From positions 310,001-374,000 of the forward strand of contig NZ_CP108549.1 of the NCBI RefSeq assembly GCF_036010325.1: a stretch of 64,000 nucleotides of DNA, in the 5' to 3' direction. The stretch is from Streptomyces sp. NBC_01210 (GTDB lineage Bacteria > Actinomycetota > Actinomycetes > Streptomycetales > Streptomycetaceae). The position numbers and the translations under genes were made by a program. Positions 12,381-54,445 of this stretch are shown here, in pieces (within the stretch, counting starts at the first letter, position 1; every line of letters begins with the position of its first letter). Under the pieces are notes generated by a model, which searched no databases, was not told the origin of the DNA, and saw nothing but the letters and a program-made list of their open reading frames with translations.

Positions 12381-12476
12381 GGAGGCGTCCGGCGCATGGT
12401 GGCGCGCCGCGGTCTTCAAAACCGACGTGGCCGGTTCTCCCGGCCAGGCGGGTTCGATTCCCGTCCGCCTCCGCCA
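12381..12476 (+). tRNA. selC: tRNA-Sec (anticodon TCA)
   Basis: The 96-base sequence has the features of bacterial tRNA-Sec. The acceptor pair is GGAGGCG with CGCCTCC, and the CCA is encoded. The anticodon loop CTTCAAA reads TCA (12416-12418), and there is a long variable arm (TGGCCGG paired with CCGGCCA) and the T loop TTCGATT. It decodes UGA as selenocysteine. It lies 23 bases upstream of selA and probably shares its transcript. Confidence 0.93.
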
Positions 12477-12499
12477 AACTTCCACCACGGGAGCCATCG

Positions 12500-13783
12500 A
12501 TGACTGATCCGCGGCGTCACATTCCCCGCACCGATGCACTGCTCGCCGCGCCGGAACTGCACTCCGCCATTGCCCACTTGGGACGAACCGCGGTCAAAGG
12601 CGTCGTCAAGGCCGCGCAAGAGCGGGTCAGACGAGACGAGATCGACCCGAGCGAGGTGCTCGCCGAGGTCCTGCGGACCCTGCCGGAAACCGCGAACAGC
12701 CTATGGGCAGTGATCAACGCAACGGGCATCGTCGTGCACACCAACCTGGGCCGCGCCCCGCTGTCGGCCGCGGCCGTCGACGCCGTCGTCAGTGCCGCCG
12801 GGTACACCGACGTCGAGTTCGACCTTTCCTCGGGCACCCGTGCACGCCGCGGTCGCGGGGTGCACGAGGCGTTGCTGGCGGCCTTGCCCGAGGCCGGCGA
12901 TGTACACGTGGTGAACAACAACGCCGCCGCGCTCGTGCTCTGCGCGCTTGCCCTGGCCGACGGGCGGGAGATCGTGGTCAGCAGGGGCGAACTGGTCGCC
13001 ATCGGCGATGGTTTCCGGCTGCCCGAGCTGATGGAGAGTACCGGCGCTCGGCTGCGCGAGGTTGGTACGACGAACCGGACAACGCTGGATGACTACACTT
13101 CGGCGGTCGGCCACGACACCGCGTTTGTACTGAAGGTGCATCCGTCCAATTTCGTGGTGACCGGTTTCGTGAAGTCGACCGACGTCGCCGCCCTGTCCGC
13201 ACTGGACGATCCGATCGTCGTCGACGTCGGCTCCGGGCTGCTGCGGCGCGACTTCGCGCTGCCCCAGGAGCCGGATGTGCAGAGTGCATTGCAGGCCGGC
13301 GCGGCACTGGTGACCGCGAGTGGGGACAAGCTGCTGGGTGGCCCCCAAGCCGGCCTGATCTTCGGCGATGCCGGTCTGGTAAGGCAGTTGGCGCGGCATC
13401 CACTGGCTCGTGCGCTCCGGACGGACAAGCTGACGCTGGCCGCGATGGAGGCGACCATTCGCGGACCGCGCCCACCGGTCGTGCAGGCGCTGCACGCCGA
13501 GCCTGCCGAACTGCGGGCGCGCGCCCAGGCGATGGTGGCTCAGTTGTCCGACTTCGGCGCGCGCATCGTCGCCTCGACGGCCATGGTCGGTGGCGGCGGC
13601 GCGCCGGAAGTCGCGCTTCCCAGTGTGGCGCTCAGCCTGCCCGCGCGGTACGGCGCCGCGCTGCGCGTCGGCAGGCCGCCGGTTGTGGGCCGGGTGATGG
13701 GCAGTCGTTGCCTGCTCGATCTGCGCACGATCGATCCACGGCAGGACAACCAGGTCGTCGTCGCCGTACGGTCCGTATCATGA
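12500..13783 (+). CDS. selA: L-seryl-tRNA(Sec) selenium transferase
   Basis: PLP enzyme that converts seryl-tRNA(Sec) to selenocysteyl-tRNA(Sec) with selenophosphate. Full length at 427 aa. Visible landmarks are VINATGIVVHTNLGRAPLS (residues 71-89), the EVGTTNRT motif (187-194) and the PLP-binding Lys K277 in VTASGDKLLGGPQAG. A GGGAG ribosome site lies just before ATG. Its last codons overlap selB by ATGA, so the two are translationally coupled; tRNA-Sec lies directly upstream. Confidence 0.96.
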   Translation: MTDPRRHIPRTDALLAAPELHSAIAHLGRTAVKGVVKAAQERVRRDEIDPSEVLAEVLRTLPETANSLWAVINATGIVVHTNLGRAPLSAAAVDAVVSAAGYTDVEFDLSSGTRARRGRGVHEALLAALPEAGDVHVVNNNAAALVLCALALADGREIVVSRGELVAIGDGFRLPELMESTGARLREVGTTNRTTLDDYTSAVGHDTAFVLKVHPSNFVVTGFVKSTDVAALSALDDPIVVDVGSGLLRRDFALPQEPDVQSALQAGAALVTASGDKLLGGPQAGLIFGDAGLVRQLARHPLARALRTDKLTLAAMEATIRGPRPPVVQALHAEPAELRARAQAMVAQLSDFGARIVASTAMVGGGGAPEVALPSVALSLPARYGAALRVGRPPVVGRVMGSRCLLDLRTIDPRQDNQVVVAVRSVS

Positions 13784-15552
13784 TCGTCGTAGCCACGGCC
13801 GGACATGTCGACCACGGCAAGAGCGCTCTGGTCCGCGCACTCACCGGTCGTGACCCGGACCGGCTCGCCGAGGAGCGCCGCCGCGGGCTCACCCTGGATC
13901 TCGGATTCGCTCGGTGCGACCTGCCGAGCGGGCGGCGGGCCGCCTTCGTCGACGTACCGGGTCACGAGCGGTATCTGCAAACCATGCTGGCCGGACTCGG
14001 CCCCGTCCGTGCCGCGCTGCTGGCAGTGGCCGCGGACCAGGGCTGGGCCGCGCAGACCGCCGAGCACGCCGACGCACTGGCCGCCTTCGCCGTGCCGCAA
14101 CTGCTGCTCGTGATCACTCGCTGCGACCTGGCCGATTCCGAGCCCACGGCGGCCATCGCCCGTCGTGAGCTGCTCACGCGCGGTCTCCCAGCCCTGCCCC
14201 CGGTGGCGACGAGCGCGCACACCGGCCAGGGTCTCGATGCGCTGCGCGCCGCACTCGACCTGCTTTCGCCGGCGCTCCCACCCAGCCCGGGACCGGTGCG
14301 GCTGTGTGTGGACCGGGCCTTCACGGTCTCGGGCGCGGGCACCGTCGTGACGGGCACCCTGCTCGGTGGAACTCTTCGCGTCGGGGACCGGCTTGAGCTG
14401 TGCCCATCTGTCGAGGGGCCGAGTGCAACCGTCCGGGAGCTCCACGTATGCGAGCGACCCGTGACCGAGGCCTCGGGTCCCACACGCGTCGCGGTCAACC
14501 TCCGCCGCGTCCCCCGCGACGCCGTGCCCCGCGGCAGCGCCCTGCTCACTCCGGACGCTTGGGTCACCAGCACGCTGGCTGATGTCCGACTGCATGCCCT
14601 CGGCGCGGATCCACCGGCGCTGCCCAGCGAGGTGATGTGCCACCTCGGCACGGCCCGTCGCCCGGCCCGGCTGCGCAGGCTCTCCGGCGACCTCGGCCAG
14701 CTCCGGCTGTCCGCACCGCTACCGCCGCATGTGGGAGACCGGCTCGCGGTGCGCGACCCCGCGACTCGTGTGGTGCTGGGCGCAACCGTGCTGGATCCGA
14801 TGCCCGAGCGCATTGCCGACCGCGGAGCGGCAGGGCGGCGCAGGGCCGCTCTGGAGTCCGCGACCGGGCAGCCGCTGCTCTCCTCCGAGCTCAAGCGCCG
14901 CGGTCTGGCCCGCGGCGTGGATCTGCGCCGACTCGGTATCCCCTTGCCTGCCGTCGATCGGCCGGAGCAGGAATGGTTCATCGATCCCGAACACTGGCGG
15001 CAGCTCGCCGAACAACTGCTGAGCCTGGTCCGGACCCACAGCGAACAATCCGTCACCGCACCGGAACTCAGCAGGGATCAGGTACGAGAGGCGCTCACTC
15101 TCCCCGACTTCCGAGTGATCGACCTCATCCTCTCGACCCGGCTCAGGGAACAGCTCGGACGCATCGGTATGGCTGACGCCCCACTGCCCTCCGGACTGAA
15201 CAGAGTCGCCGAGACCGCTCAACGGGAACTCGCTGCCGCAAGATGGCGAGCGCCAACTGCCGAGCGGTGGCGTGAGCTCGGGGTCAACACGGCCGAACTC
15301 CACGCGCTGGCCTGGCACGACGTGCTCGTACGACTGGCACCGAACGTCTACCTCACGCCCGAAGCGATTGAGCAGTCCCTCGCCGTACTCCGAGATCTGC
15401 CCGTTCCCTTCCGGGTAAGCCAGGCGCGAACCGCCCTGGCCGCACCTCGGCGAGTTGTCGTACCGCTGCTGGAACACCTCGATCGTCAGGGGATCACCGA
15501 AAGAATCAGCGACGACGGCCGCCGACAATTGCGCGGACCGGCGCCGGCGTGA
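13780..15552 (+). CDS. selB: Selenocysteine-specific elongation factor
   Basis: GTPase that delivers Sec-tRNA to the ribosome at UGA codons marked by a SECIS hairpin. 590 aa, normal length. The start at the ATGA overlap with selA gives MIVVATAGHVDHGKSALVRA (G1). LTLDLGFARCDL, DVPGHERY (G3) and a G4 variant VITRCD follow. After the EF-Tu-like domains come the C-terminal winged-helix repeats (for example LSSELKRRGLARGVDLRRLG and PFRVSQARTALAAPRRVVV) that bind SECIS. The frame is intact, in contrast to selD. Confidence 0.96.
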   Translation: MIVVATAGHVDHGKSALVRALTGRDPDRLAEERRRGLTLDLGFARCDLPSGRRAAFVDVPGHERYLQTMLAGLGPVRAALLAVAADQGWAAQTAEHADALAAFAVPQLLLVITRCDLADSEPTAAIARRELLTRGLPALPPVATSAHTGQGLDALRAALDLLSPALPPSPGPVRLCVDRAFTVSGAGTVVTGTLLGGTLRVGDRLELCPSVEGPSATVRELHVCERPVTEASGPTRVAVNLRRVPRDAVPRGSALLTPDAWVTSTLADVRLHALGADPPALPSEVMCHLGTARRPARLRRLSGDLGQLRLSAPLPPHVGDRLAVRDPATRVVLGATVLDPMPERIADRGAAGRRRAALESATGQPLLSSELKRRGLARGVDLRRLGIPLPAVDRPEQEWFIDPEHWRQLAEQLLSLVRTHSEQSVTAPELSRDQVREALTLPDFRVIDLILSTRLREQLGRIGMADAPLPSGLNRVAETAQRELAAARWRAPTAERWRELGVNTAELHALAWHDVLVRLAPNVYLTPEAIEQSLAVLRDLPVPFRVSQARTALAAPRRVVVPLLEHLDRQGITERISDDGRRQLRGPAPA

Positions 15553-27259: not shown

Positions 27260-27566
27260 TCAGCCCCAGGTGACGCGCAGGCCTCGGGCCTGGGCGTACT
27301 CGGCGAGCTCGCGCAGCTCGTTGAGCCGCGCCGGGGGTAGCCCTCGGAGCGGCCGCAGGCGGTGAAGCGGCCGTCCGTGACCGCGGGCGCCCGGCGTCGG
27401 CGGGGTCGAGGGCGAGGGCGAGCAGGACGCGGCCGAGGAAAAGCCGGGCAGCGTCCTCATCTCCGTACGGCTCGGCGTATCCGAGGGAGTCCAGCACGCG
27501 GGCGGCGTTGGAGTTGTTCATGTTGACCGGCTCGCCGGTGAGTTCGGCGGTGAAGGTGACCGACAT
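27260..27566 (-). pseudogene. Small conserved hypothetical protein with frameshift
   Basis: The start is well supported (GAGAGGAG before ATG). The product opens MSVTFTAELTGEPVNMNNSN and continues RLFLGRVLLALALDPADAG; then the frame shifts and ends LNELRELAEYAQARGLRVTW with TGA at 27260. It looks like a small family of about 100 aa found repeatedly in streptomycetes, function unknown. It is divergent from the P450 gene. Confidence 0.55.
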
Positions 27567-27605
27567 GCCGGGGCTCCTCTCGGCGGGTGGGTGTTTCCGG
27601 CTGCG

Positions 27606-27626
27606 GCGGGGGTGCCACTCCCCCGC
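27606..27626. promoter_or_regulatory. Hairpin leader, copy B
   Basis: Same GCGGGGG / TGCCACT / CCCCCGC hairpin as at 27172, here about 40 bases upstream of the minus-strand ATG at 27566, within a longer direct repeat. Confidence 0.6.
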
Positions 27627-27819
27627 CGCCCGGGCGGGGCGCAGCCGGTGGGCCGCACCCCGGCGGCCGGCTTCCCGGCGGAAGGGCGGCAGGATCCGGG
27701 GCGTTCCCGGAAAGTGGCTATGCCGAGGCGGGCTGTCACCGGGTGCGCCTGCTCCCGTACAGTCCGTGGTGCCGGTGCGCCGTTACGGCCAAGCACAGCG
27801 GTTGACCAGGAGAAGAATC

Positions 27820-29151
27820 ATGGACCCCGAAGCCAGTCTCGGCTCCCTTTCGCACGTTCCCGGAATGGGGCGGCCGGTCCCCGAAGCCGAGCCTGGACTC
27901 GTGCAGCGGTGGCGTTCGGGGGGAGGTGAACTGGTCGAGCTGCTGTCCCAGGTGCGCGAGCGGTTCGGCAGCATCGCCGTGTTCCGCCTCGGGCCGGCCC
28001 CCACCGTTCTCGTCACCGACCCGCAGGCGGTCCAGCACGTACTCGCCCGGCACCCGGAGCGGTACGTCAAGCGCTCCCACCGCGCCCGTCTGCTGATCGG
28101 CGACGGAGTCCTCGCCGCCACCGGTGCGGCGTGGAAGCGCCAACGCCGCTTGTTGCAGTCCCAGTTCACCGGTACCGGGATGCGCCGCTACGAACAGCGG
28201 ATCACTGAGGCTGCCAGGACCACCGCCGGGCGCTGGGGCGGGTACGCCCGTACCGGGCAAACCCTCGATGTCGGGCGGGAGATGCGCCGCTTCGCCCTGG
28301 ACGCCATCTGGCGCTCTCTTACCGGGCACCCCCTCGATGACGGGACCGAGCGCGAACTGGCCGCCGTGGCAGCCGTGGCAGCCGCCCTTCCGACGCTGCC
28401 CGCTGATGTCACCGACGCCCACGACGCCGTTGCCGCCGATCTCGCCCGGATCGATGCGGTCGCCCGGCACGCCATCGAGGCCGCCCGCGGCGGGGCGGTC
28501 GGCCCCGACGGCCCGGGCCTGCTTCACGTCCTGATCGACGCCGCCAACGAGCGCCCCGAGTACACCGACCGGCTGATCCGCGACGAGCTGGTCACGTTGC
28601 TCGTGGCTGGGCACGAGACCACCGCCACCACCCTGACCTGGCTCTACCTGCTCCTCGACCGGTACCCCGCCGCCCGCGAACAAGCTCTCGCCGCCGGCGA
28701 CGAAGGCTCGGCGCAACGCCGCCAGGCCATCCAGGCTCTGGTCCACGAGACGCTCCGGCTCTACCCATCCGCCTGGATCCTGCCCCGCCACGCCACCGAG
28801 GACGACACCCTCGCCGGCTACACCGTCGAGGCGGGCACCGACATCCTGATCTGCCCGTACCTCACGCACCGCGATCCTGAGCTGTGGCCGGACCCAGAGC
28901 ACTTCGACCCTCGGCGCTTCATCACCCCGAACGGCCGGCCTGCCCACCCGGGCGCCTACTTCCCCTTCGGCATCGGTCCCCGCGCCTGCCTCGGTCTGCA
29001 ATTCGCTCTCCGCGAATCGACGGTCCTGCTCGAACACCTGCTGCCAGTCCACACCCTGGCCTTCTCCTCCACCCCCACGAAGGCGGCGTACGGCATCACC
29101 GTCCGCCCCGACGGCCCCACCCCCGCGACCTTGGAACCGCCACGCACCTGA
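27820..29151 (+). CDS. Cytochrome P450 monooxygenase
   Basis: Haem-thiolate oxygenase, 443 aa, soluble bacterial class needing ferredoxin and reductase from elsewhere. The start has AGGAG 7 bases upstream. Helix I carries the canonical AGHETTATTLTW, helix K has HETLRLYPSAW (ExxR), and the haem loop is FPFGIGPRACLG with the Cys ligand at about residue 390. Substrate unknown; overall resemblance is to terpene- or lipid-oxidising bacterial P450s. It is isolated from the other two P450s by more than 13 kb and has no obvious partner gene. Confidence 0.93.
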   Translation: MDPEASLGSLSHVPGMGRPVPEAEPGLVQRWRSGGGELVELLSQVRERFGSIAVFRLGPAPTVLVTDPQAVQHVLARHPERYVKRSHRARLLIGDGVLAATGAAWKRQRRLLQSQFTGTGMRRYEQRITEAARTTAGRWGGYARTGQTLDVGREMRRFALDAIWRSLTGHPLDDGTERELAAVAAVAAALPTLPADVTDAHDAVAADLARIDAVARHAIEAARGGAVGPDGPGLLHVLIDAANERPEYTDRLIRDELVTLLVAGHETTATTLTWLYLLLDRYPAAREQALAAGDEGSAQRRQAIQALVHETLRLYPSAWILPRHATEDDTLAGYTVEAGTDILICPYLTHRDPELWPDPEHFDPRRFITPNGRPAHPGAYFPFGIGPRACLGLQFALRESTVLLEHLLPVHTLAFSSTPTKAAYGITVRPDGPTPATLEPPRT

Positions 29152-39958: not shown

Positions 39959-39987
39959 GGGGTCCGCGCCGTCACAGTGCGGACCCC
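39959..39987 (-). terminator. Terminator of the KS-ACP operon
   Basis: GGGGTCCGC and GCGGACCCC pair across 11 bases, 63 bases beyond the stop codon of the ketosynthase gene. Confidence 0.6.
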
Positions 39988-40049
39988 GGTCTGTACGGGG
40001 TGAGGCCCTCAGGACTGTTGGGCTCCAATGCGGTTTCCCCCGCACCCAG

Positions 40050-41279
40050 TTATGGGAAGTCGGTTGTGAACAACAGGACGGCGTTCTGGCCACCGAAGCC
40101 GAACGAGCAACTGAGGCCCGCGTTCTGGGCTACTGGGCGCGGTCGGCCGGCGACGATGTCCAGCTTGTGATCGCCGTCCTGGCCCTCGAAGTTCGCCACG
40201 GGCGGCACTGTCCGACGGCGCAGGGCGAGGACCGTGTACGCCGCCTGGATCGCACCCGCCGCCCCGAGAGCATGGCCGATCACGCCTTTGGCGGCCGTCA
40301 CGGGCGGCATGTCCTTTCCGAAGACCCGGGTGAGAGCCGCAGCCTCGGCCGCGTCGTTAAGCGGCGTGGAGGTGCCGTGCGCGTTGACGAGGCCCACGTC
40401 TCCCGGAGCGCACGCCGCGTCATTGAGTGCGGCGCGGATGGCCCGGACCGCTCCGTGCCCGTGCGGGTGCGGGGCCACCGGATGGTGTGCGTCCACGCCG
40501 GCGCCGTAGCCGCGCAGCAGGGCCTGGACCGGTGCCCTTCGGGCGCGGGCGTGGGAGAGACGTTCCAGTACGAGGACGGCGGCGCCCTCCCCCAGCACGA
40601 AGCCGTCCCGTGCCGCGTCGAACGGCCGACTGGCCAGCTGCGGGTGTTCGCGCCTCCGGGACAGCGCCCGCATCCGGGTGAAGCAGGTGGCCGTCATACG
40701 GGAGCGCGCGGACTCGCTTCCGCCGGCCAGCACGATGTCACACGTCCCGGACCGCAGCAGGTCCCGCGCGACACCGATCGCGGTCGCGCCCGAGGCACAG
40801 GCGCTGGACGCGGTGAAGTTCGGCCCCTGGGCGCCCAGGTCGATCGCGACCTCGCCCGCGGCCATGCTCGGCACACTGCGCGGCAGCGCGAGCGGCGAGA
40901 CCCGCTCGGGCCGGTCCGCGCCGAGATGGCAGAACTCGGTGACGTACGTACTGAGGCTGTTGGACCCGACGCCCAGCACGACCCCGACCCGCTCCGCCGG
41001 CCACGTGCCGGCATCCAGCGCGGCGTCGGCGACGGCCCGTCGGGCGGCGGTCAAGGCGAACTGGATGAACCGGTCCACGCGCCGGGCGAGCGACCGGCCG
41101 AGTTCGGCCGCAGCGTCGAATCCGGTCACCTGGCAGGAGAAGTCGACGGGCAGCCCGGCGAGTTCGGGGTCCGGAGCGGCCAGTGAGCGGCCCTGGCACA
41201 GGGCGGCCCAGTTCGCGTCCGCCGTATGCCCCGCCGGAGTCACCAGGCCCAGCCCGGTGACCGCGATCTCAGGCCGCAT
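40050..41279 (-). CDS. Beta-ketoacyl-ACP synthase (FabF/KAS II type)
   Basis: Condensing enzyme of 409 aa that extends an ACP-bound acyl chain with malonyl-ACP. The Cys-His-His triad is complete: C161 in TASSACASGATAIG, H301 in VNAHGTSTPLND and H336 in AAKGVIGHALGAAGAI; the C-terminal GFGGQNAVLLF is normal. Its ATG overlaps the end of the ACP gene by 11 bases, so the pair is translationally coupled. It is not in a fatty-acid operon (no fabD, fabH) but stands back to back with a terpene synthase, which suggests a dedicated role in a secondary pathway. Confidence 0.93.
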   Translation of the reverse strand: MRPEIAVTGLGLVTPAGHTADANWAALCQGRSLAAPDPELAGLPVDFSCQVTGFDAAAELGRSLARRVDRFIQFALTAARRAVADAALDAGTWPAERVGVVLGVGSNSLSTYVTEFCHLGADRPERVSPLALPRSVPSMAAGEVAIDLGAQGPNFTASSACASGATAIGVARDLLRSGTCDIVLAGGSESARSRMTATCFTRMRALSRRREHPQLASRPFDAARDGFVLGEGAAVLVLERLSHARARRAPVQALLRGYGAGVDAHHPVAPHPHGHGAVRAIRAALNDAACAPGDVGLVNAHGTSTPLNDAAEAAALTRVFGKDMPPVTAAKGVIGHALGAAGAIQAAYTVLALRRRTVPPVANFEGQDGDHKLDIVAGRPRPVAQNAGLSCSFGFGGQNAVLLFTTDFP

Positions 41280-41538
41280 GCTCGAACGCCCGCGCCGCCT
41301 CGCCGAGCGTGGAGGCCGGGAACAGGTCCAACTCGCCCTCGGCCAGGACGATCCCGAACTCCTGCTCCGCCGCCACGACCAGTTCCATCAACGACAGCGA
41401 GTCCATCCCGAGGCTTTCGAACGTCGTCGCGGCGGTCAACTGCTCCGGCGCCACCTCGACATCGAGATGACCGGTCAGCAGGGCGACGAGCCGCTCGGGC
41501 AATGCCCGCTCCATATCCGTTTCCGCTGCCTGTGTCAT
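41269..41538 (-). CDS. Acyl carrier protein
   Basis: 89 aa with GGGAG before ATG. The phosphopantetheine attachment serine is S47 in FESLGMDSLSLMELV; helices before and after match the four-helix ACP fold (ALPERLVALLTGHLDVEVAP, then AAEQEFGIVLAEGELD). It should be activated by a phosphopantetheinyl transferase encoded elsewhere. First gene of the two-gene KS operon, divergent from the terpene synthase. Confidence 0.93.
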   Translation of the reverse strand: MTQAAETDMERALPERLVALLTGHLDVEVAPEQLTAATTFESLGMDSLSLMELVVAAEQEFGIVLAEGELDLFPASTLGEAARAFEHAA

Positions 41539-41837
41539 TGTGATCTCCCATTCCGTCGAATCACGCGATCTTCGCAGTAGCAATGACTGTGACATTGCAC
41601 GCCCGGGTTACGGGGCCGGTTGCGAAGTCACGCCCCACACAACGCCGGAAGTCCTACAAGGTCACGAACTACCGATTCAATGAAGATACTTCGGCGTACT
41701 CGGACGCAAGATCACCGTGGGGCGCACGGCGCCTTCCGCGCACGCTCGCCCGTTGGAGTGGACCCTCCGGGGCGGCATTGCTGTGCGCAATCTTGCTAAC
41801 GCACCATCTGTGGAGTCGAGCGAAGGAGCAGCCGAGC
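41539..41837. promoter_or_regulatory. Divergent promoter region of the terpene cluster
   Basis: The 299-base gap separates the ACP-KS operon from the terpene synthase-P450 operon and must hold both promoters. I see no clear -35/-10 pair. The frame of the terpene synthase is open back to 41583, but that sequence does not look like protein, so the start is placed at the GTG after AAGGAG. Confidence 0.5.
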
Positions 41838-42845
41838 GTGACGCGAACCGAAGCGGTGTTCACCATCCCGTGGCCCCTGCGGGTCAACCCGCATCTGGAT
41901 CAGGCACGCGAAAGCGCGCTCGCCTGGATGCGGAGATTCGGCCTGCTGGACGGCGAGCAGGCCGCGGAAGACTTCGTCGATTGGCGACTGGCCGAAGTGG
42001 CCGCCTTCTTCTATCCCAACGCCAGTGCCGAGGACTGCTGTACGGCGGCGCAGATGATGGGCTGGTACTTCCTGCCGTTCGACGACCAGTTGGACGGTGA
42101 GATCGGCCGTGATCCCAGCACGGTGGCGGCTGTCTGCAACGCCCTGATCGGCATCGTGCACGGCGCGACCGGCCCGCAGCCGCACGATACGCCGACGGTG
42201 CGGGCCTTCGCCGATCTGTGGAGCCGGATGGTGCGGGGGATGTCCCTGCCGCTGCGCACGCGCGTGGCGTTCAACTGGACGTCGTACTTCTCCTCCCAGG
42301 TGACGGAGGCGATCGACCGCACGACGGGATTCGCCTACCACGACTTGGCGGACTACTTCTCACTGCGGGCCTCCACGACGTGCGCCTTCGGTCAGAACGA
42401 CCTGGGCGAGAAGTGGGGCGGCACCGAGGTGCCGCCGGAGCTGTGGCACCACCCCGTGCTGCAGCGCATGCGGCAACTGGGCGCCGACGTGGTCGCGTTG
42501 AGAAACGACTCCATGTCGCTCAGGCACGAGGACGTCACCGGCGGCCACAACGCGATCCACCTCATTCAGCGCAGCTGCGGCTGCACGCGGCACGAAGCTC
42601 TGGTCGAGGCGTCCCGCCACGCTCAGCAAAGGGTCGACGAACTCGTGGAGTTGGAGGAGAGGGCTTTGTCACGACTGCTACGGGCCGTCGACCAGAGTCA
42701 GCGCGCGGCGCTGCGCGGATACGCGGACATCATTCATGACTGGATCTGCGGTGACTACGAATGGGAGCGGATCACCACACGGCACGACGAGCACCGCGTC
42801 ATGCCCGACTGGGCGTCCGGTCTGCTCGTGAGCGCGGGGGGCTGA
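41838..42845 (+). CDS. Class I terpene synthase
   Basis: Cyclises a prenyl diphosphate, most likely farnesyl or geranylgeranyl diphosphate. GTG start with AAGGAG at 8 bases; 335 aa, the normal single-domain bacterial size. Both metal-binding motifs are intact: DDQLD at residues 82-86 (LPFDDQLDGE) and the NSE triad N223, S227, E231 in ALRNDSMSLRHED; the C-terminal DWICGDYEWERITTRH matches the usual helix-J end, with His in the RY position. The following P450 begins 3 bases after the stop codon. Product cannot be predicted. Confidence 0.92.
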   Translation: MTRTEAVFTIPWPLRVNPHLDQARESALAWMRRFGLLDGEQAAEDFVDWRLAEVAAFFYPNASAEDCCTAAQMMGWYFLPFDDQLDGEIGRDPSTVAAVCNALIGIVHGATGPQPHDTPTVRAFADLWSRMVRGMSLPLRTRVAFNWTSYFSSQVTEAIDRTTGFAYHDLADYFSLRASTTCAFGQNDLGEKWGGTEVPPELWHHPVLQRMRQLGADVVALRNDSMSLRHEDVTGGHNAIHLIQRSCGCTRHEALVEASRHAQQRVDELVELEERALSRLLRAVDQSQRAALRGYADIIHDWICGDYEWERITTRHDEHRVMPDWASGLLVSAGG

Positions 42846-42848
42846 GCG

Positions 42849-44228
42849 ATGGCGACCACAAGCCTCCCGGCATCCCTCGTTCCCGCCCCGCGCGCACCCG
42901 GTGCGCTGCCCGGCGTGGGCCACCTGCGGCAGTTGCTCGTCGACCCCACCCGGTTCCTGGCCCGGCTGCCGTCTTACGGCGACCTGGTGGAGATCCGGCT
43001 CGGTCCCCGCCCCACCTATGTGGTCTGCAGTCCCGAATTGGTCTCCGAGATCCTGGTGCGCCGCCACCGCGACTTCGACAAGGGCGGCCCCTTCTTCGAC
43101 AACATCTCCGAGTTCTTCGGAGACGGCCTGGCGACCTGCCCCAATGCCAAGCACACCCGGCTGCGCCGCCTGACCCAGCCGGCCTTCCACCCGAGCAAAC
43201 TGCCCGGGTACGCGGAGCTGGCCGGGCGCGAGATCACAGCTGTCACTCAGAAATGGCGCGAGGGACAGGTCCTGGATGTGCGCCGGCTGATGCAGGAACT
43301 CGCGATGCGGATCACCGTCTCGACGATGCTGGCGTCATGGTTCGCCGACACAGGCGCGGACGCCGACACGATCGGCCGCACGCTGGGTGACGTGGACGTC
43401 CTGGTCAGCGGCGCGTTCCTGCGCATGGTCGTGCCCGGCATCGCCCGCCTCCCGCTGCCGACCAACCGGCGTTACGCACAGGCCCGGGAGTCCTTGTACG
43501 CGCATATCGACACGACTGTCGCCGCCTACCGCCGGGCCGGTACCGACCAGGGCGACCTGCTGTCCATGTTCCTCGCCGAGGACGGTGACGGAAACGCGCT
43601 GTCGGACACGGAAGTACGCGAGCAGGTGATGACCATGTTCATCGCCGGTATCAGTACCACGGCCGCGATGCTCGCCTGGACCTTGTACTACCTCTCGTTG
43701 GACGACGATCTCGACGCGGCCGTCGCGGCCGAGGCACAGCAGGTGTGCGGCGGGGGCCTCGCCCGGCACGAGCACCTTCCGCAGCTGCCGACCCTGATGG
43801 CCGTGGTGACCGAGGCCTTCCGGATCAGGCCCTCCGCGTGGCTGTTCAGCAGGACCACCGTCACGGACACCTCCTTGGGCACCTACCGTGTGCCCGACGG
43901 TGCCGACATCCTGATCAGTCCGTACATCATTCACCACCGGCCCGATCTCTTCCCCGAGCCCGACCGGTTCGACCCGGGGCGCTGGACCGGCGACGGACGC
44001 ACGTGGGCCAAGGCCGAGCGGGCGATGGAGTTGGTGCCCTTCGGAACCGGGACCCGTAAGTGCATCGGACACGACTTCACCGTCATGAACGTCATGCTGT
44101 CCCTGGCGTCCATCCTGGCCGACTGGAAGCTCACCCCCGCCACGTCCCGCCCGGTCACCCTCATCGGGCGCAGCATCATCGAACCCCGCAACCTCGACCT
44201 GCGCCTGCACCGCCGCCAGGTGTCCTAG
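42849..44228 (+). CDS. Cytochrome P450 with altered helix I
   Basis: 459 aa, placed directly behind the terpene synthase and almost certainly cotranscribed; the expected role is oxidation of the cyclised terpene. The haem loop VPFGTGTRKCIGH has its Cys near residue 405, and the ExxR motif is TEAFRIRPSAW. In helix I the usual AG-x-(D/E)-T-T reads FIAGISTTAAMLAW, so the acidic residue of the proton-relay pair is Ser. The N-terminus (PGALPGVGHLRQLLVDPTRF) resembles pentalenene-oxygenase-type P450s. Confidence 0.93.
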   Translation: MATTSLPASLVPAPRAPGALPGVGHLRQLLVDPTRFLARLPSYGDLVEIRLGPRPTYVVCSPELVSEILVRRHRDFDKGGPFFDNISEFFGDGLATCPNAKHTRLRRLTQPAFHPSKLPGYAELAGREITAVTQKWREGQVLDVRRLMQELAMRITVSTMLASWFADTGADADTIGRTLGDVDVLVSGAFLRMVVPGIARLPLPTNRRYAQARESLYAHIDTTVAAYRRAGTDQGDLLSMFLAEDGDGNALSDTEVREQVMTMFIAGISTTAAMLAWTLYYLSLDDDLDAAVAAEAQQVCGGGLARHEHLPQLPTLMAVVTEAFRIRPSAWLFSRTTVTDTSLGTYRVPDGADILISPYIIHHRPDLFPEPDRFDPGRWTGDGRTWAKAERAMELVPFGTGTRKCIGHDFTVMNVMLSLASILADWKLTPATSRPVTLIGRSIIEPRNLDLRLHRRQVS

Positions 44229-44255
44229 CAGGGACTGCGCCGCTGTCCGCCGCGC

Positions 44256-45518
44256 CTACTCAGGCAGCGCGCGGTGGACAGCCCGCTCGATGGCGTCGGC
44301 CAGGTCGTCGGTCTGCCGCGCGGTGAACCAGTCCGCCGCCATGACCACAGTGATGTCGAGGCCCACCGTGTCGTCCTGGCCGCCGGTGAGAAAGACCGAG
44401 GGCAGGGGGCCAGGGGGAAGGGCGCACCCGTCGATGGGGTCCGACCTCAGGTCCGGGGGAAGCAGCAGCGGCGGGGTCTTCGTCATCAGGTTGCTGACCA
44501 GGACGCTGATCGGAGCGTGCGCCACTTCGTCCATCAGCTCGGCGGTCGCGGCGATGGCCTTCTGCACCGTGTTGTTCAGGACCGCTTCGCGCAGCTGCTC
44601 CAGTACGCGGCGTCCGATGTCGACCGGATGGAAGTCAGGCCCCACCTCGACCACGGCCTGCGAGGCGGTGGCAGCCAGCACCATCTCGTGCGGGGACATG
44701 GGCGGCCTGAGCCGCCGCCGGAGATCCAGAGTGGACAAGCACGTCATGGGGACGGCTTCGTCCGGGTGAGGCGACTGCGAGTGAACCGCGCGCAGTGCGA
44801 TGCCGCAGACCAGTGCGTGCAGACTCATGCGTGCCGCCTTGGCCTGGCACGTCAGTTGCTCGACCAACTCGGCGGACAGCCGCACCTGTCGCCTGTGGAC
44901 GCCGGCTTGCGCCGGCGTGCCGTGGCCGGCTGCGAGGGCGGGAATGCACGCGGGGACCATGTCCCGCATCTTCGCCGCGCGGTCCCTGAGGAAGTCGTTC
45001 AGCTCCTCGGCGGAGAAGCGGGCGCGGAAGTGTTCCTCGACGGGGCGGGGCAACCCGGCGGTACGGGGCGGCAGCACAGGCGTACGGCCGGTGACGCGTG
45101 CGCTGTAGCTGCGCCACAGGGTGTGCAGCAACGTCAGCGCACTGACGCCGTCGCTGATGGCGTGGTGAACCGACAGGGCCAACCGGTAGCGGTCCTCCGC
45201 CTCCTCGGTCACGACGGCCCTGAGCAGCGGCGTGTCCGGCGCGTAGGGCGCCCCGACCTGTTCGATGCCGTCGGTCACACCAAGACGCGGGCCGGGCACC
45301 GACGGGTCCAGCCGCAGGACGTGACCCTGATCCACGGCCACAATCCGCGCGGACAGCACAGGGTGCAGGACGAGCAGGTCCCCGACGGCGGCCGCCAATG
45401 CGTCGAGGTCGAGCCGACCCCGCAGCCGCTGGCTGAAATAGATCGGCGTACCGAACGAGGCGAAGGCCACCTCGCTGGCCGCGAGCGGGCGTTCCTCCAC
45501 CACAGTGGCGTCGGTCAA
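44256..45518 (-). CDS. Condensation/PapA-type acyltransferase
   Basis: CoA- or ACP-dependent O-acyltransferase of the condensation-domain superfamily, like mycobacterial PapA enzymes. The TTG start is chosen for its AGGGAG site 6 bases upstream; an in-frame ATG about 75 bases further out lacks one. The HHxxxDG motif is intact (SVHHAISDGVSA, residues 118-124). Downstream sequence (AELVEQLTCQAKAARMSLHA and a VLVSNLMTK segment) fits the second half of the pseudodimer. About 420 aa, the PapA size, too short for an NRPS module. Likely esterifies the oxidised terpene. Convergent with the P450 before it and divergent from the next. Confidence 0.85.
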   Translation of the reverse strand: MTDATVVEERPLAASEVAFASFGTPIYFSQRLRGRLDLDALAAAVGDLLVLHPVLSARIVAVDQGHVLRLDPSVPGPRLGVTDGIEQVGAPYAPDTPLLRAVVTEEAEDRYRLALSVHHAISDGVSALTLLHTLWRSYSARVTGRTPVLPPRTAGLPRPVEEHFRARFSAEELNDFLRDRAAKMRDMVPACIPALAAGHGTPAQAGVHRRQVRLSAELVEQLTCQAKAARMSLHALVCGIALRAVHSQSPHPDEAVPMTCLSTLDLRRRLRPPMSPHEMVLAATASQAVVEVGPDFHPVDIGRRVLEQLREAVLNNTVQKAIAATAELMDEVAHAPISVLVSNLMTKTPPLLLPPDLRSDPIDGCALPPGPLPSVFLTGGQDDTVGLDITVVMAADWFTARQTDDLADAIERAVHRALPE

Positions 45519-45827
45519 GATGATCTCCCTGCAGAGGCCGCGGGCCAGCGCCTTGGTCACCGCCGAGACCGACACGGTCGGCGCCCGCGCCATGATGATC
45601 GTGCACTGTCGGCGGTCACCACAATGCCGGCCGCCCCGGTTCACTCCGTCGGGTCTTCGCACGTCAACGGTGCCGGACACGCTTCAGCCGAACGACTCAA
45701 AAGGCCACCCCGACGGTGCGGTATCCCACCAAACAGTGCGCCGGTCCGGCCCCGCACTGATTAGACACGTTCCCGGGCAGCGGCCGCTGTTGACCCCACA
45801 GCCTGTGCGGAAGGAACCCATTCACCC
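45519..45827. promoter_or_regulatory. Divergent intergenic region
   Basis: It separates the acyltransferase from the second P450 operon and should hold two promoters. GGAAGGAA lies about 10 bases before the P450 ATG. No clear operator or promoter seen. Confidence 0.4.
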
Positions 45828-47186
45828 ATGAGCAGGACACAATCCGACTTCCGATTCGCGGATGCATCGGGCGCGTTGCCGGGACTGGGGCACACACTGC
45901 CCATCTGGAGAACGCCGCTGTCCTTCCTCTCCTCTCTGCCAAGCCAGGGGGACCTCGTACGCGTCCGACTCGGGCGGCAGCCCGTCTACCTGGCCTGTCA
46001 CCCGGAGTTGGCCGATCAGGTGCTACGGGACTCACGCACGTTCGACAAAGGGGGCCCGGCTCACGACGAGGTGCGCGAGCTTCTCGGGGACGGAATCGTC
46101 ACGTGTCCGAACGCGGCGCACAGGCGGGTACGGCGCCTGGTCCAGCCCGCGTTCCAGCGCACCCGCGTCGCCGGGCACATCACCACCATGGCCGCCAGGG
46201 CCGACGCGATGACCGGTGCCTGGCGGTCCGGGGTTCCGCTCGACGTGACGCGGGAGATGACGGACATGGCCATGACGATCGGGGTACGCGCGATGTTCGC
46301 GGCGGAGATCGCCGAGCACTACCGGGACGAGACCCACGCTTGCCTCGACGCGATCATCAAGGGCATCCACCGTGAGGCGTTCGCCTCGGCGCTCGGGGTG
46401 CAGTGGCTGTTCCGCCACCGTACCCGGCGGTTCCACGGGACGCTGGCCAGGTACAAACAGGTCGTCGACGAGGTGATCACCGCCTACCGTCGCTCCGACG
46501 CGGAGCACGCGGACATCCTGTCCATGCTGCTGGCGGCCCGCGATGACGACGGCGAGCCCATGAGCGATCACGAGGTGCGCGAGAACGTCATCAACATCTT
46601 TGCCGCGGCGACAGCGCCGGGCCACGCCAGTGCAATGGCGTGGGCCCTGCATCTGCTCGACCGCCATCCGGACATCGCCCGTGGTGTGCAGCAGGAGATC
46701 GACTCGGTACTCGCCGGCGATCCGCCGGACGAATCGGCCGTGGCGCGTCTGGAACTCACCCGGCGTGTCGTCCTGGAGACGCTGCGGCTGTACCCGCAGA
46801 GCTGGCTCCTCACCCGCTGCGTCGCCACCCCTGTCGAGCTGGCCGGGCGGAGTCTGCCACCGGGGACCAGCGTGGTCGTCAGCCCTTATCAACTGCACCG
46901 CCAATCAGGCCTCTTCCCCGACGCCGAGCGATTCGACCCCGACCGCTGGGCGGACGGCACTCCCGGCCCGCGCGGTGCATACATCCCGTTCGGCAACGGC
47001 TCCCGCAAGTGCCCCGGAGACACATTCGCACTCACCGAGATCGTCGTCGTACTCGCCCGGGTCCTGCAGAACTGGATCCTCCGCGGGAAAGCCGGATCCT
47101 CGGGACCGATGGTCCCGCGCGTCACCACGATGCTGCAGGCCCCACCACTGATGATGACGCCTCATCTGCGCGGCTCCAGGTCATGA
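45828..47186 (+). CDS. Cytochrome P450 lacking the helix-I acid-alcohol pair
   Basis: 452 aa; same subfamily as the preceding P450 by N-terminus (GALPGLGHTLPIWRTPLSFL) and by the FDKGGP segment both share. The haem loop is IPFGNGSRKCPGD with the Cys near residue 395, and ExxR is LETLRLYPQSW. Helix I reads FAAATAPGHASAMAWALHLL: where most P450s have AG-x-E-T-T, this has A-T-A-P-G, so both the acid and the Thr are missing. First gene of an operon with the ABC transporter; its stop overlaps the next ATG (ATGA). Confidence 0.92.
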   Translation: MSRTQSDFRFADASGALPGLGHTLPIWRTPLSFLSSLPSQGDLVRVRLGRQPVYLACHPELADQVLRDSRTFDKGGPAHDEVRELLGDGIVTCPNAAHRRVRRLVQPAFQRTRVAGHITTMAARADAMTGAWRSGVPLDVTREMTDMAMTIGVRAMFAAEIAEHYRDETHACLDAIIKGIHREAFASALGVQWLFRHRTRRFHGTLARYKQVVDEVITAYRRSDAEHADILSMLLAARDDDGEPMSDHEVRENVINIFAAATAPGHASAMAWALHLLDRHPDIARGVQQEIDSVLAGDPPDESAVARLELTRRVVLETLRLYPQSWLLTRCVATPVELAGRSLPPGTSVVVSPYQLHRQSGLFPDAERFDPDRWADGTPGPRGAYIPFGNGSRKCPGDTFALTEIVVVLARVLQNWILRGKAGSSGPMVPRVTTMLQAPPLMMTPHLRGSRS

Positions 47187-47821
47187 CCGCTCCACCCACC
47201 GCCGCCGAAACTGCCCTCAGCGCGCGGGACATTCACAAGGCATTCGGCAACCACGTCGTACTGGCCGGCATCGACCTCAGCGTCCGCTCCGGCGACATCG
47301 TCGGCATCGTCGGGGAGAACGGCGCCGGCAAAAGCACCCTCCTGCGCATCCTGTGCGGAGACCTGCGCCCGGACAAGGGCAGCGTCACGATCGGAGGCAC
47401 CCTCAGCCACTGCCCCCAACACCCCGTACTCAACAACGCCCTTACACCATTCCAGCACCTGTGCCTGTTCAAGGAGGCCTTCCGGCTGCGAAACCTGGAC
47501 CATGCCCACGAAATGATCGACCAGCTCGCCTTCGCCGACCATCTGCACGTTCCCGTCAAAGTCCTCAGTGGCGGAACACGGCAAAAGCTCAACCTCGTCC
47601 TCGCCCTCATACACGATCCCGACGTGGTGCTGCTGGACGAGCCCTACCAAGGCTTCGACTGGCAGACCTACCTGGCCTTCTGGGACCTCGCCACCGCCCG
47701 TCGCGCGGCCGGGCGCACCACCGTCGTCATCTCCCACCTCGCGTACGACATCGACCGCCTGGACGCCGTCATCCAACTCACCCGCAAAGTGGCCGTCATG
47801 ACCAAGGGAGCCGGCCTGTGA
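47183..47821 (+). CDS. ABC transporter ATP-binding protein
   Basis: 212 aa ATPase subunit. Walker A GENGAGKST, Q-loop at CPQHPV, signature LSGGTRQK, Walker B VVLLDEPYQGFD and the switch His in VVISH are all present. Start is fixed by the ATGA overlap with the P450. It should drive the membrane protein encoded next, probably exporting the cluster product or giving self-protection. Confidence 0.92.
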   Translation: MTAPPTAAETALSARDIHKAFGNHVVLAGIDLSVRSGDIVGIVGENGAGKSTLLRILCGDLRPDKGSVTIGGTLSHCPQHPVLNNALTPFQHLCLFKEAFRLRNLDHAHEMIDQLAFADHLHVPVKVLSGGTRQKLNLVLALIHDPDVVLLDEPYQGFDWQTYLAFWDLATARRAAGRTTVVISHLAYDIDRLDAVIQLTRKVAVMTKGAGL

Positions 47822-48600
47822 GGGCCTATCGCATCGCGGCCCGCTACAACCTGGCCGAACTCGCCAAGAACACACTCGCCGCTCTCCTGCTGGCTGTCCT
47901 CATCCCTCTGTGGATCCTCGCCGCGCCACAGACCTTCGCGCCCGCTCCTCTGACCTTCCGGCTGCGCGCGACCGGCCAGACACTCACCGCCTCGACAGAC
48001 CACGTGGGCATGATCCACGGTTGCCTCGGCGTGGTCATGCTCCTGATGGCCTTCCTCACCTTCAGCGCCGCCCGCCAGGCGGGCCCCTTCGACCGCCGGC
48101 TCACCGCGGCCGGCTACCCGCGCACTCCGCTCCTGCTGGCCAAGGCGACCTCGCTGCTCTCGGCCGCCGCGCTCGTTGCCCTGTACACCACCGTATGGAC
48201 GCTGGCCGTATGGTCGCCCCGCCACCTGGAGTTCCTGTGGCTCGGGCTCGTCACCGCGTGCCTCGTCTACGGAGCGCTCGGCCTCGTCCTCGCCCTCTTC
48301 CTGCCCGGTGAACTCGAGGGCATGGTCGTCATCTTCGTCAGCAGCAACCTCGACCTGCTGCCACAAAGCCCCCTGGTCAACCCCGATCCGCACGGGTTCC
48401 TGGGCCCCTTGCTCCCGATGTACGGCTCCATGCAGACCTGCCTCGCCGCGGGCTTTGCTCCCACGACCACGCTCCGACCTGTAACCGCAAGCCTCACGTG
48501 GACCGGCGCCCTCACCCTCATCGCTCTCCTCGCCTTCTGGGGCCGCACCCGCAGGCGGCAGCCCCGTGACACTTCACACTGGGCTCCATACGGCGGCTGA
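47818..48600 (+). CDS. ABC-2 type transporter permease
   Basis: 260 aa with six hydrophobic segments (for example TLAALLLAVLIPLWILAAP, VVMLLMAFLTFSAAR and LEFLWLGLVTACLVYGALG). GTG start overlaps the ATPase stop (GTGA), so the two subunits are translated in step. It resembles small ABC-2 permeases of antibiotic-export systems. Last gene of the cluster; IS debris follows. Confidence 0.88.
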   Translation: MRAYRIAARYNLAELAKNTLAALLLAVLIPLWILAAPQTFAPAPLTFRLRATGQTLTASTDHVGMIHGCLGVVMLLMAFLTFSAARQAGPFDRRLTAAGYPRTPLLLAKATSLLSAAALVALYTTVWTLAVWSPRHLEFLWLGLVTACLVYGALGLVLALFLPGELEGMVVIFVSSNLDLLPQSPLVNPDPHGFLGPLLPMYGSMQTCLAAGFAPTTTLRPVTASLTWTGALTLIALLAFWGRTRRRQPRDTSHWAPYGG

Positions 48601-48729
48601 ACACGCGAGCGTCTGGCACATGGCGACCTCGGGCGCGCCTCCACGTCGCTTCGGCCCCTGGGACTGCAGCGCGCCCCGGTGCGGGGGGGGCGCCCTTCGG
48701 TGCGAGCAGCTGCTGGACGCGGCCACGGT

Positions 48730-48825
48730 GTCCGAGCAGCTGTCCTCGACGCCGGCCGTGAGCACCGGCTGCGCGCCGAGCAGGCCATGGACGCGCTCAA
48801 CCGCCGCTTCGGCTCCGGCCCCGTG
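48730..48825 (+). pseudogene. Possible Y-family polymerase tail fragment
   Basis: The reading REHRLRAEQAMDALNRRFGS followed by GPV resembles the C-terminal end of ImuB/DinB-like proteins. Very short and uncertain; joined directly to the ISL3 remnant. Confidence 0.2.
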
Positions 48826-49701
48826 GACCTCGGCCAGGCCGCTGAACGGTGTGTCGCCGACCACCGAGGCTGCCTGCGGGGCACGGCGCCCGAGCCGGCC
48901 AGCCCAGTCGAGGAGCCCCAGGAACCCATCGGCATCTCAGGTTCGCCGTGGCCAACCGGCCACCGGTTTGCCGACCGGACCCGAGCCAAGCACGCGGCCG
49001 TCCACGCACTGCTTGCCGCTGGCCACAGCCGCCGCGCGATCCAACGCCACTTCGGCATGACCTACCGCACCGTCAAACTCCCCGCCGACGCGGCCAGCCC
49101 CGAAGACCTCTTCCGTGGCCAATGGCAGGGGCGCCCTTCCGTCCTCGATGCGTACAAGCTCTATCTGGATGACCGCTGGAATCAAGGGTGCACCAACGCC
49201 TGGAAGGCGTGGGAGGAGACCGTGCCGATCGGCTATACCGGAAGCTACCAGCGAGTTCGCGCCTGCTTCCGCACAAAGCGCCTCTCGACAAACCCACTCA
49301 CTGCACCGCCGCCCGCACCTCGCACCGTCGCAGGCTGGATCCTCCGCCACCCCGACACCCTCACCGAGGTCGAACAGCTCCGGCTCAAGGCCGTCCTGGT
49401 CCACTGCCCGGCACTGGAAGCCCTCACCAAGCACGTCCGGCCCTTCGCACAAATCCTCACCCAGCGCCAAGGCCACCGGCTCCCCGAGTGGCTCGACGCC
49501 GTCCGCAACGACGACCTGCCCGGCCTCCACACCCTCGCCGCCGGCATCGACCGCGACCGCGACACCGTCATCGCCGGCCTCACCCTGCCCGGGAACTCCG
49601 GCGTCGTCGAAGGACACGTCAACCGGATCAAGATGCTCAAACGGCAGATGTTTGGCCGAGCAGGATTCCAGCTCCTCCGCAAACGGGTCCTGATGTCCTG
49701 A
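48826..49701 (+). pseudogene. ISL3-family transposase, 5' truncated
   Basis: The frame is open from GQAAERCVADHRGCLRG through the middle HTH (HSRRAIQRHFGMTYRTVKL), SVLDAYKLYLDDRWNQGCTN and the catalytic end (GNSGVVEGHVNRIKMLKRQM, then FGRAGFQLLRKRVL). The zinc-finger N-terminus and first DDE part, about 150 residues, are absent. Related ISL3 pieces lie at 53310-53552 and 63653-64000. Confidence 0.8.
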
Positions 49702-49796
49702 TCACCAGCCTCAGCCGAGCCAGCAGGGAACTCGATGGCGTCACCTTTGGCGCCTGTGGAAAGGTGCTCGCCACAGCCACCAACGAAGAGACCGAG

Positions 49797-50306
49797 ATGA
49801 ACCACGACGACGCTCTCGAGCAGCTCAGCCACATTGCGCGTGAGAGGGCGTTCGGCCGACATGTTGGATCCGACCGTCTCATCCAGGTGGGGTTGGACGC
49901 ACTGATGGCCGCTGTTGAGAGCCCTTCGCTCGCCATGCTGGCCGGCCTCTTGCGGAGCGAAGAACCGGAAGCCCCAGCTCTCTTCGACCAGGTCCTGGAG
50001 GAGCTCGGACTCCTCTTCCAACCGCCAGCCGACCCCCGGGCCGCGAAGTGGGCCATGGCCTACTGGATCGCCGGTCAGATCGCGGACGGATCTCTCGATC
50101 CCGCTACCGGCACCCATCTGATCTGGGCCGATGTCGCCTATGACCTCAACTATCCCGAAGAACTGCGACCACTCGTCTCGTGCGCGCTCAACCTGGATGG
50201 CTGGGACGAGAGCTGGGGCGTCTCCGTCGAGGCGCTGAAGGAAGAGGCGATTGAGGCAGCTGAACAACTCCTGAGCAAGCAGCCGCCGGGAGAGCAGAGG
50301 GACTGA
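49797..50306 (+). CDS. Hypothetical protein, 169 aa
   Basis: ATG with GAAGAGA upstream. Soluble, acidic, helical; contains SLAMLAGLLRSEEPEAPALF, AAKWAMAYWIAGQIADGSLD and a C-terminus rich in Glu/Gln. A decayed relative of its first half lies at 54161-54445 next to the reductase gene. I do not recognise a named family; the repeated occurrence suggests a lineage-specific accessory family. Confidence 0.6.
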   Translation: MNHDDALEQLSHIARERAFGRHVGSDRLIQVGLDALMAAVESPSLAMLAGLLRSEEPEAPALFDQVLEELGLLFQPPADPRAAKWAMAYWIAGQIADGSLDPATGTHLIWADVAYDLNYPEELRPLVSCALNLDGWDESWGVSVEALKEEAIEAAEQLLSKQPPGEQRD

Positions 50307-54160: not shown

Positions 54161-54445
54161 TCAGCGTGCCCGCGCCACAGAAGTTGAGCCTGAACCCGTT
54201 CTCGTGAACAGAGCCACGTCAGAGATGGCGATCCAGTAGGCCATGGCCCACTTCGCGGCCCGGGGGTACATCCGGCGGGTGAAAGAGCAGTCCCAGTTCG
54301 TCCAGGACGTGGTCGAGAGCTCAGGCGCTTCGGGCTCCTCACTCCGCAGGAGACCGGCGAGCGTGGCGAGTGAGGGACTGTGGACGCCGGCGACCAGCGC
54401 GTCCAGCCCCGCCTGGATGAGGCTGTCAGAACTGGACTCAGACAT
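54161..54445 (-). pseudogene. Decayed relative of the 49797-50306 gene
   Basis: LIQAGLDALVAGVHSPSLAT and LAGLLRSEEPEAPEL match the first half of the protein at 49797 almost residue for residue; AAKWAMAYWIA reappears after a frame change. The ATG overlaps the stop of the reductase gene. Confidence 0.65.

Follow-up and report, generated by a model that had tools for sequence, protein, structure and literature searches.

Why should a FabF-type ketosynthase and its own carrier protein stand back to back with a terpene synthase? The question is raised by a block of eight open genes at 40050–48600 of a 64,000-nucleotide stretch of DNA from Streptomyces sp. NBC_01210 (hereafter the window; it lies at 310–374 kb on the main contig, 9.08 Mb long, in a genome of 9.2 Mb). 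Translation of the open reading frames (ORFs) of the block, together with Pfam and NCBIfam profile scans, identified a β-ketoacyl-acyl carrier protein synthase (KS), a dedicated acyl carrier protein (ACP), a class I sesquiterpene synthase, two cytochromes P450, a PapA5-type acyltransferase (PapA) and an ATP-binding cassette (ABC) ATPase and permease. The answer that we favor, as somewhat more probable than all others together, is that these genes form a discrete, horizontally moving 8.5-kb cluster for an exported, oxidized sesquiterpene ester.

Organization of the block

The leftmost gene (40050–41279, minus strand) encodes the 409-residue KS, and its start overlaps by 11 nt the gene for the 89-residue ACP (41269–41538, minus strand). 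Across a divergent intergenic region of 299 nt (41539–41837) stands the 335-residue synthase (41838–42845, plus strand), and the first P450 (P450a; 42849–44228, plus strand) begins 3 bases past the synthase stop. The 420-residue acyltransferase follows on the minus strand (44256–45518), separated by a second divergent region of 309 nt (45519–45827) from three plus-strand genes, the second P450 (P450b; 45828–47186), the ATPase (47183–47821) and the permease (47818–48600), which are joined by ATGA and then GTGA overlaps and end the conserved block on the right. A preliminary description of the locus had given these junctions correctly. It had also counted seven genes and one on the opposite strand; all eight are indeed intact, but three (KS, ACP and acyltransferase) lie on the minus strand and five on the plus strand. 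The left end, which had been placed at 39959, was moved to ∼40040, where conserved homology starts in pairwise blastn comparisons. This layout suggests four transcription units and two divergent intergenic regions, the first probably a two-way promoter region and the second probably also a promoter region. A scan for sigma-70-type promoters found no site, and terminator-like sites numbered four versus 2.3 expected.

The region 41539–41837 was judged non-coding even though it is open in the window. It is 75–84% identical in two relatives, compared with 92–94% for the flanking genes, and carries frame-breaking indels in both. A 420-residue synthase starting at 41583 with an N-terminal extension was considered and rejected, since codons 1–85 are broken by indels in the two relatives: 41583–41837 aligned with loci L039 and L040 at 84% and 78% identity with gaps at 4 and 7 positions, most of them indels of one base, whereas the nucleotide alignment of 41838–42845 was gap-free at 94% and 92% identity. 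The in-frame GTG at 41838 and the AAGGAG ahead of it are conserved in both relatives. Because of these indels and this conserved start, we took the synthase to be 335 residues long; most of the 25 homologues listed are also about 335 residues long. For the acyltransferase, whose ORF is open upstream to 45680, the most likely start is the TTG at 45518, which aligns with 420-residue homologues. In the alignment of the relatives, 45594–45827, within the second divergent region, showed 81–85% identity and 6–7 gaps.

Occurrence in other genomes

We searched 392 genomes of the genus with the synthase, scoring four candidates for each genome listed, and obtained a match at E 1e-40 in 71. The window's own synthase and those of genomes G302 (79% identity) and G033 (71%) stood apart; the next full-length match was 40% identical (G040), and a 50% match in G291 spanned 163 residues only. 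Plasmid NZ_CP109439.1 of Streptomyces sp. NBC_01483 carries a synthase 78.5% identical over the long ORF and 93% over the 335 residues, and a scan of genome contigs gave four loci, in S. barringtoniae (L044), S. monashensis (L045), S. huiliensis (L046) and S. diastatochromogenes (L047). Genomic context was seen for few of the 25 synthase relatives listed in the protein set.

Eight genes in the same order and on the same strands were present at all five loci read in which the synthase is at least 88% identical, the window included; two of these, S. monashensis and S. barringtoniae, are near-identical (99% over 12 kb), and the named loci with the block are all Streptomyces. The preliminary description had set co-occurrence of the KS-ACP pair and the synthase in other genomes as a test of its reading, and four other loci, of which two are near-identical, have the pair and the synthase side by side. 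The proposal that they never co-occur is contradicted by these four, and a fifth locus has an internally deleted synthase beside the pair. Seven loci with a synthase were examined (window, L039, L044, L045, L046, L042/L047 and L076): P450a followed the synthase in all seven, a PapA homologue was near in six, and the KS-ACP and ABC pairs were adjacent in five.

Genome G033 holds another copy, in which homologues of the KS, ACP, P450a, ABC and PapA genes (L073, 11471–15509; L074, 2776–6571) accompany a synthase with matches at residues 1–32 and 318–335 only, its core missing; there P450b shifts frame near residue 102, and two contig ends interrupt PapA. Apart from this copy, G033 carries a synthase-P450a-P450 locus. 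Proteins of Kitasatospora LaBMicrA B282 (KS 88%, PapA 78% and synthase 65% identical) suggest one more cluster, if the three are linked. Searches of plasmids with the PapA protein found only NBC_01483 above 60% identity, and 394 genomes of the class and 394 of the family yielded one useful PapA relative, in G854.

Selection and horizontal transfer

The ratio of nonsynonymous to synonymous divergence (dN/dS) between the window and L039, L044 and L046 was 0.12–0.38 in 23 valid of 24 gene pairs, with only codons 1–241 of the permease compared; the remaining pair, PapA against L039, gave 0.34 when computed separately. Elsewhere dN/dS rose as high as 0.45, for P450b between other relatives, and was 0.43 for PapA against L076 (PapA values for L039-L044 and L039-L046 were excluded). 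We conclude from these ratios that the block genes are under purifying selection.

The synonymous divergence (dS) also suggests horizontal transfer of the block. Between the window and G302, dS was 0.19–0.24 for the KS, synthase, P450a and PapA, compared with 0.26, 0.41 and 0.45 for the rpoB, gyrB and parE-like segments, respectively; between the window and G033, it was 0.18–0.21 for the KS, ACP and P450a, compared with 0.30, 0.40 and 0.54. The cluster genes compared are thus clearly less diverged than the gyrB and parE-like segments, which points to transfer, and slightly less diverged than rpoB, in a small control of three housekeeping segments (rpoB, gyrB and a gyrB-like/parE-like segment). 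Departing from this pattern are P450b (0.43) and the permease (0.29) between the window and S. barringtoniae, and the loci without KS-ACP, at which synthase dS exceeds housekeeping divergence (0.64 in G033 and 0.73 in G854). Homology in pairwise blastn stops at the outer genes, except for a longer shared stretch between S. monashensis and S. barringtoniae and a few short 64–71% matches in flanking DNA, one of them on a transposase piece at 49.5 kb.

A proposed route to an acylated, oxidized sesquiterpene

The gene families, motifs, gene order, purifying selection, transfer signal and KS-ACP family membership described here are sequence-based, and from them we infer every catalytic step, the fatty-acid-like nature of the acyl chain and the feeding of PapA by the ACP. 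In the proposed route, host farnesyl diphosphate (FPP) would be cyclized by the class I synthase, and P450a and P450b would oxidize the skeleton to leave at least one hydroxyl. The KS and its ACP, together with host malonyl-ACP and reductive fatty-acid enzymes, would build or lengthen an acyl chain on the ACP; PapA would shift this acyl group onto the terpenoid hydroxyl, and the ABC pair would export the product.

The synthase metal motifs are intact, as had been described: DDQLD (DDxxD), NDSMSLRHE (NDxxSxxxE; NSE) and the R177 sensor are present, and each key residue is kept either by all 25 family members or by 24, the divergent P0167 being the odd one out. The structural model (predicted local distance difference test score, pLDDT, 90) has an α-helical class I fold, with cucumene synthase as the best PDB match and TMq of 0.81–0.88 for the top five. 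Class I sesquiterpene synthases usually carry a C-terminal Arg-Tyr pair. Here the pair is R315 H316 and not Arg-Tyr; position 316 is His in 13, Asn in 9, Tyr in 1 and another residue in 2 of the 25 members, so that Arg-His or Arg-Asn is read in 22 of 25. The cucumene, isoafricanol and pentalenene synthases, the best PDB and NCBIfam neighbors, share the fold, DDxxD, NSE and R177. The cucumene and pentalenene structures are distant, however, with the window synthase 28–38% identical to those among the matches listed and its scores far under the equivalog cut-offs (210.2 bits versus 500 for isoafricanol synthase, NF041624). PMC6604706 states that no isoafricanol derivatives were known at that time.

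For both P450s, the best profiles were pentalenene oxygenase and albaflavenone synthase (CYP170A1), yet both scored under the equivalog cut-offs (340 and 380 bits versus 800 for pentalenene oxygenase, NF045812). Pentalenene oxygenase is the nearest profile to P450a, which has the I helix AGISTT. The best PDB match of P450b is 3dbg, listed as a putative P450 and presumably CYP170A1. P450b has its heme-binding Cys and ExxR but differs from these two enzymes in the I helix, where it reads AAATAPGHAS without the usual AGx(D/E)T; in all six copies examined (two of them 99% identical) the segment reads AAATA(P/A)G(H/R/P)AS or begins TAATA, with one extra residue. The acid and threonine usual at this place serve oxygen activation. 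We fetched 20 P450 loci of the same genome. Four could not be framed by motif and were left out; the usual Thr was present in 14 of the 16 others and the extra residue in none. Another P450, an open frame at 27508–29151 of the window, is 28–34% identical to the cluster P450s compared.

P450b also differs from its neighbors in history. Its dS between the window and L039 was 0.43, compared with 0.11–0.16 for the KS, ACP, synthase, P450a, PapA and permease and 0.29 for the ATPase, and its protein identities fall into two allele groups, the window with S. huiliensis (86%) and NBC_01483 with S. barringtoniae (93%), with 73% between groups. Because of this excess and these groups, we read P450b as an exchanged allele that probably moved together with part of the ATPase. 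A further P450b paralogue lies past the KS in S. monashensis and S. barringtoniae.

The acyltransferase carries the HHxxxDG motif that had been noted (HHAISDG), along with a PapA_C domain and the condensation fold, and neither the second His nor the Asp of the motif varies among the 13 sequences compared. Its model (pLDDT 78.5, the best of five; the others 46–72) best matched PapA5 (1q9j), with SgcC5 and TRI3, enzymes that esterify alcohols, further down. It thus resembles PapA5, the mycobacterial phthiocerol dimycocerosyl transferase, in motif, domain and fold, but the proposed donor of the block enzyme is unlike that of PapA5 in being a stand-alone ACP beside a terpene synthase. In the ABC pair, the ATPase has intact Walker A (GENGAGKS), LSGG and Walker B motifs. 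The ABC-2 assignment of the permease is weak, at 21.7 bits (E 0.00017) versus a cut-off of 26.9 for Pfam ABC2_membrane.

Relatives of the KS-ACP pair outside the cluster

The Cys-His-His triad of the KS is intact (Cys in ACASG, His in HGTST and in GHALG), as is the phosphopantetheine Ser of the ACP (GMDSL), and the KS exceeds the cut-off for KAS II (NF005589; 405.1 bits versus 387). A recent duplication within the genome was rejected as its source, the next-best genomic KSs being only 55% and 42% identical. KS matches at E 1e-140 were found in 14 of 121 genomes; of 271 remaining drawn genomes, 160 were searched at E 1e-180, giving matches in 4 genomes of one set of 80 and in 3 of the other. 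In a tree of 132 KSs, with the 326-residue fragment P0091 left out and the stop letter in the L073 row set to X, nine cluster KSs fell on one side of a branch supported at 85 by the Shimodaira-Hasegawa-like approximate likelihood ratio test (SH-aLRT; 95 without the Kitasatospora row). Four of the nine (P0023–P0026) were assigned to clusters indirectly, through PapA or synthase matches or loci. The cluster KSs nest inside a wider, mostly Streptomyces KS family.

Thirteen KS loci that do not belong to the cluster were fetched (KS 67–85% identical), and any gene within the 16–19.5 kb obtained was counted as nearby. An ACP relative lay at most 300 nt away in 10 of the 13; an acyl-ACP desaturase relative was nearby in 7, an MMPL protein in 6 and a type III polyketide synthase (PKS) in 5. 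The desaturase, MMPL and chalcone/stilbene-synthase Pfam domains were confirmed in 7 of 8 proteins sampled from three loci. At none of the 13 was there a PapA match at E 1e-4 or a synthase of the block's family. Five loci (L099, L107, L109, L110 and L111) share a recurring Streptomyces cassette of desaturase, ACP, KS and type III PKS, the desaturase of L107 being spread over two frames. The KS and ACP of these cassettes are 79–85% and 61–72% identical to those of the block and likewise adjacent. The cassettes differ in having a desaturase and a type III PKS, with MMPL in four of five, and no PapA, P450a or P450b match at E 1e-4. Among the matches listed in open-licence literature, no function was described for the KS-desaturase cassettes or for the S. 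coelicolor ACP/KS loci.

The desaturase and type III PKS neighbors fit an acyl-supply role, and our preferred reading of the KS-ACP pair is that of an acyl-supply module taken up by the terpene block, probably in the direction from lipid cassette to cluster. The pair looks like a module in common with lipid-type cassettes and not like part of a polyketide hybrid.

Two neighboring observations were made among the 13 loci. At L104 (10901–16786), a 68% identical KS with no ACP detected is followed within ∼6 kb by a condensation-like ORF and several P450s, as judged by eye. At L099 (4591–5512), a distant terpene-synthase match (25%, in two frames) lies ∼4 kb from the desaturase-ACP-KS cassette.

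Alternative explanations and evidence against the ester cluster

One alternative, which we hold to be rather unlikely, is that the KS and ACP make a short, unreduced β-ketoacyl unit, such as an acetoacetyl-like group, that PapA then transfers. The KS and ACP are the sole carrier-type genes of the block, and there is no reductive enzyme among the eight. Acyl-ACP desaturases, however, act on long chains, and their presence at 7 of the 13 outside loci speaks against so short a product; host fatty-acid reductases, moreover, can act on carrier-bound chains.

That the KS-ACP pair is a hitch-hiking lipid module outside the terpenoid pathway, with PapA using an acyl-CoA, is also unlikely. In its favor, G854 carries the synthase, P450a and PapA within a fetched stretch of 28 kb that has no KS-ACP. 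All 5 close clusters read (two near-identical) nonetheless keep the pair beside the synthase, under purifying selection; the pair shares the 299-nt divergent region with the synthase, and the nine cluster-assigned KSs group together as described.

It is improbable that the pair instead extends a carboxylated terpenoid through a carbon-carbon bond, with PapA closing an ester or lactone. Two P450s could yield an acid and condensation-type enzymes can close rings, but none of the eight genes encodes a ligase to load a free acid onto the ACP, and the KS family is often found beside lipid enzymes. The idea that the block is a silent relic on an arm of the chromosome, for which the adjoining transposase piece and the core-deleted, frame-changed copy in G033 might be cited, is very hard to reconcile with eight open frames, a window dN/dS of 0.12–0.38 and open copies on other contigs, one of them a plasmid.

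Several observations nevertheless weigh against the sesquiterpene-ester reading that we favor. The KS falls below the FabF equivalog cut-off (TIGR03150; 426.2 bits versus 493.75), and the synthase, both P450s and PapA score under the equivalog or subfamily cut-offs of their nearest NCBIfam families (for PapA, 154.4 bits versus 396 for the PapA5 subfamily NF006787). No ketoreductase, dehydratase, enoyl reductase, malonyl transferase, FPP synthase or regulator is encoded among the eight genes. Lipid enzymes accompany the KS family in part only, a desaturase match being missing at 6 of the 13 outside loci and a type III PKS match at 8. Synthase-P450a pairs without KS-ACP occur at L042 in G033 (71% identity; 33 kb fetched) and at L076 in G854, from another genus of the same family (69%; 28 kb fetched), and at L076 a 62% identical PapA homologue is kept. 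Because the synthase, P450a and PapA thus occur without KS-ACP in G854, PapA may use another acyl donor. The acylated, oxidized terpenoid of the preliminary description is still the best fit to the block, although the pairing with KS-ACP that it had stressed is not obligatory, as these two loci indicate. L042 and L076 bear a different second P450 (the P450c form), and an EF-hand-like conserved protein, recognized by eye, adjoins the synthase-P450a-P450c genes at both (L042, 14338–14874; L076, 14342–14878).

Comparison with described clusters

Among the matches listed in open-licence literature, judged by title and the start of the abstract, we found no characterized pathway with this gene set, in agreement with the preliminary description. 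The net cluster of S. netropsis likewise combines a sesquiterpene synthase, oxidative genes and an acyltransferase gene, netA; its published description, however, does not contain the terms acyl carrier or ketosynthase, and no new product was seen there when netA was introduced individually (PMC10055836). The pha cluster of S. phaeochromogenes OSK-123 resembles the block in having a terpene synthase, a P450 and a 3-oxoacyl-ACP synthase gene, whereas its published description lacks the terms acyltransferase, acyl carrier and ABC transporter and describes mevalonate genes and protoporphyrinogen-oxidase-like enzymes (PMC12860625). The possibility that the pha cluster is the same system was set aside on the basis of these gene differences.

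A further reading, put forward tentatively, is that of a mobile plug-in: phenolic-lipid-like cassettes would have supplied a terpene cyclase with a lipid-type KS-ACP pair, the PapA5-type enzyme would join the chain to the oxidized skeleton, and the exchangeable P450b, devoid of the customary acid and threonine in the I helix, would perform an unusual oxidation, so that the product would belong to an unrecognized class of exported bacterial sesquiterpene lipids. If the proposed route is correct, bacteria couple type II acyl-carrier chemistry to terpenoid cyclization through a stand-alone ester-forming enzyme. The 8.5-kb unit is small enough to be cloned whole, and it would allow a direct test of whether non-mycobacterial PapA5-type enzymes take dedicated ACP donors. 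Its natural variants, comprising two P450b alleles and loci with and without KS-ACP, offer a ready-made comparison, and the P450b lineage may be useful for studying oxygen activation without the usual I-helix residues.

Flanking sequences

An ISL3-type transposase piece (48679–49701) lies directly right of the block, and G302 has a stretch like it (70%, 212 nt) next to its additional P450b. Ten ORFs scanned elsewhere in the window included three transposase-like proteins, SelA, SelB and a flavoprotein. A selenocysteine set occupies 12381–15552, ∼322–326 kb from the contig start, with the selenocysteine tRNA gene followed immediately by SelA (12500–13783) and a SelB-like factor (13708–15552). 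Two alike ORF segments sharing SPSLAxLAGLLRSEEPEAP were seen by eye ∼4 kb apart, at 49188–50306 and 54161–54445, the second apparently frame-shifted.

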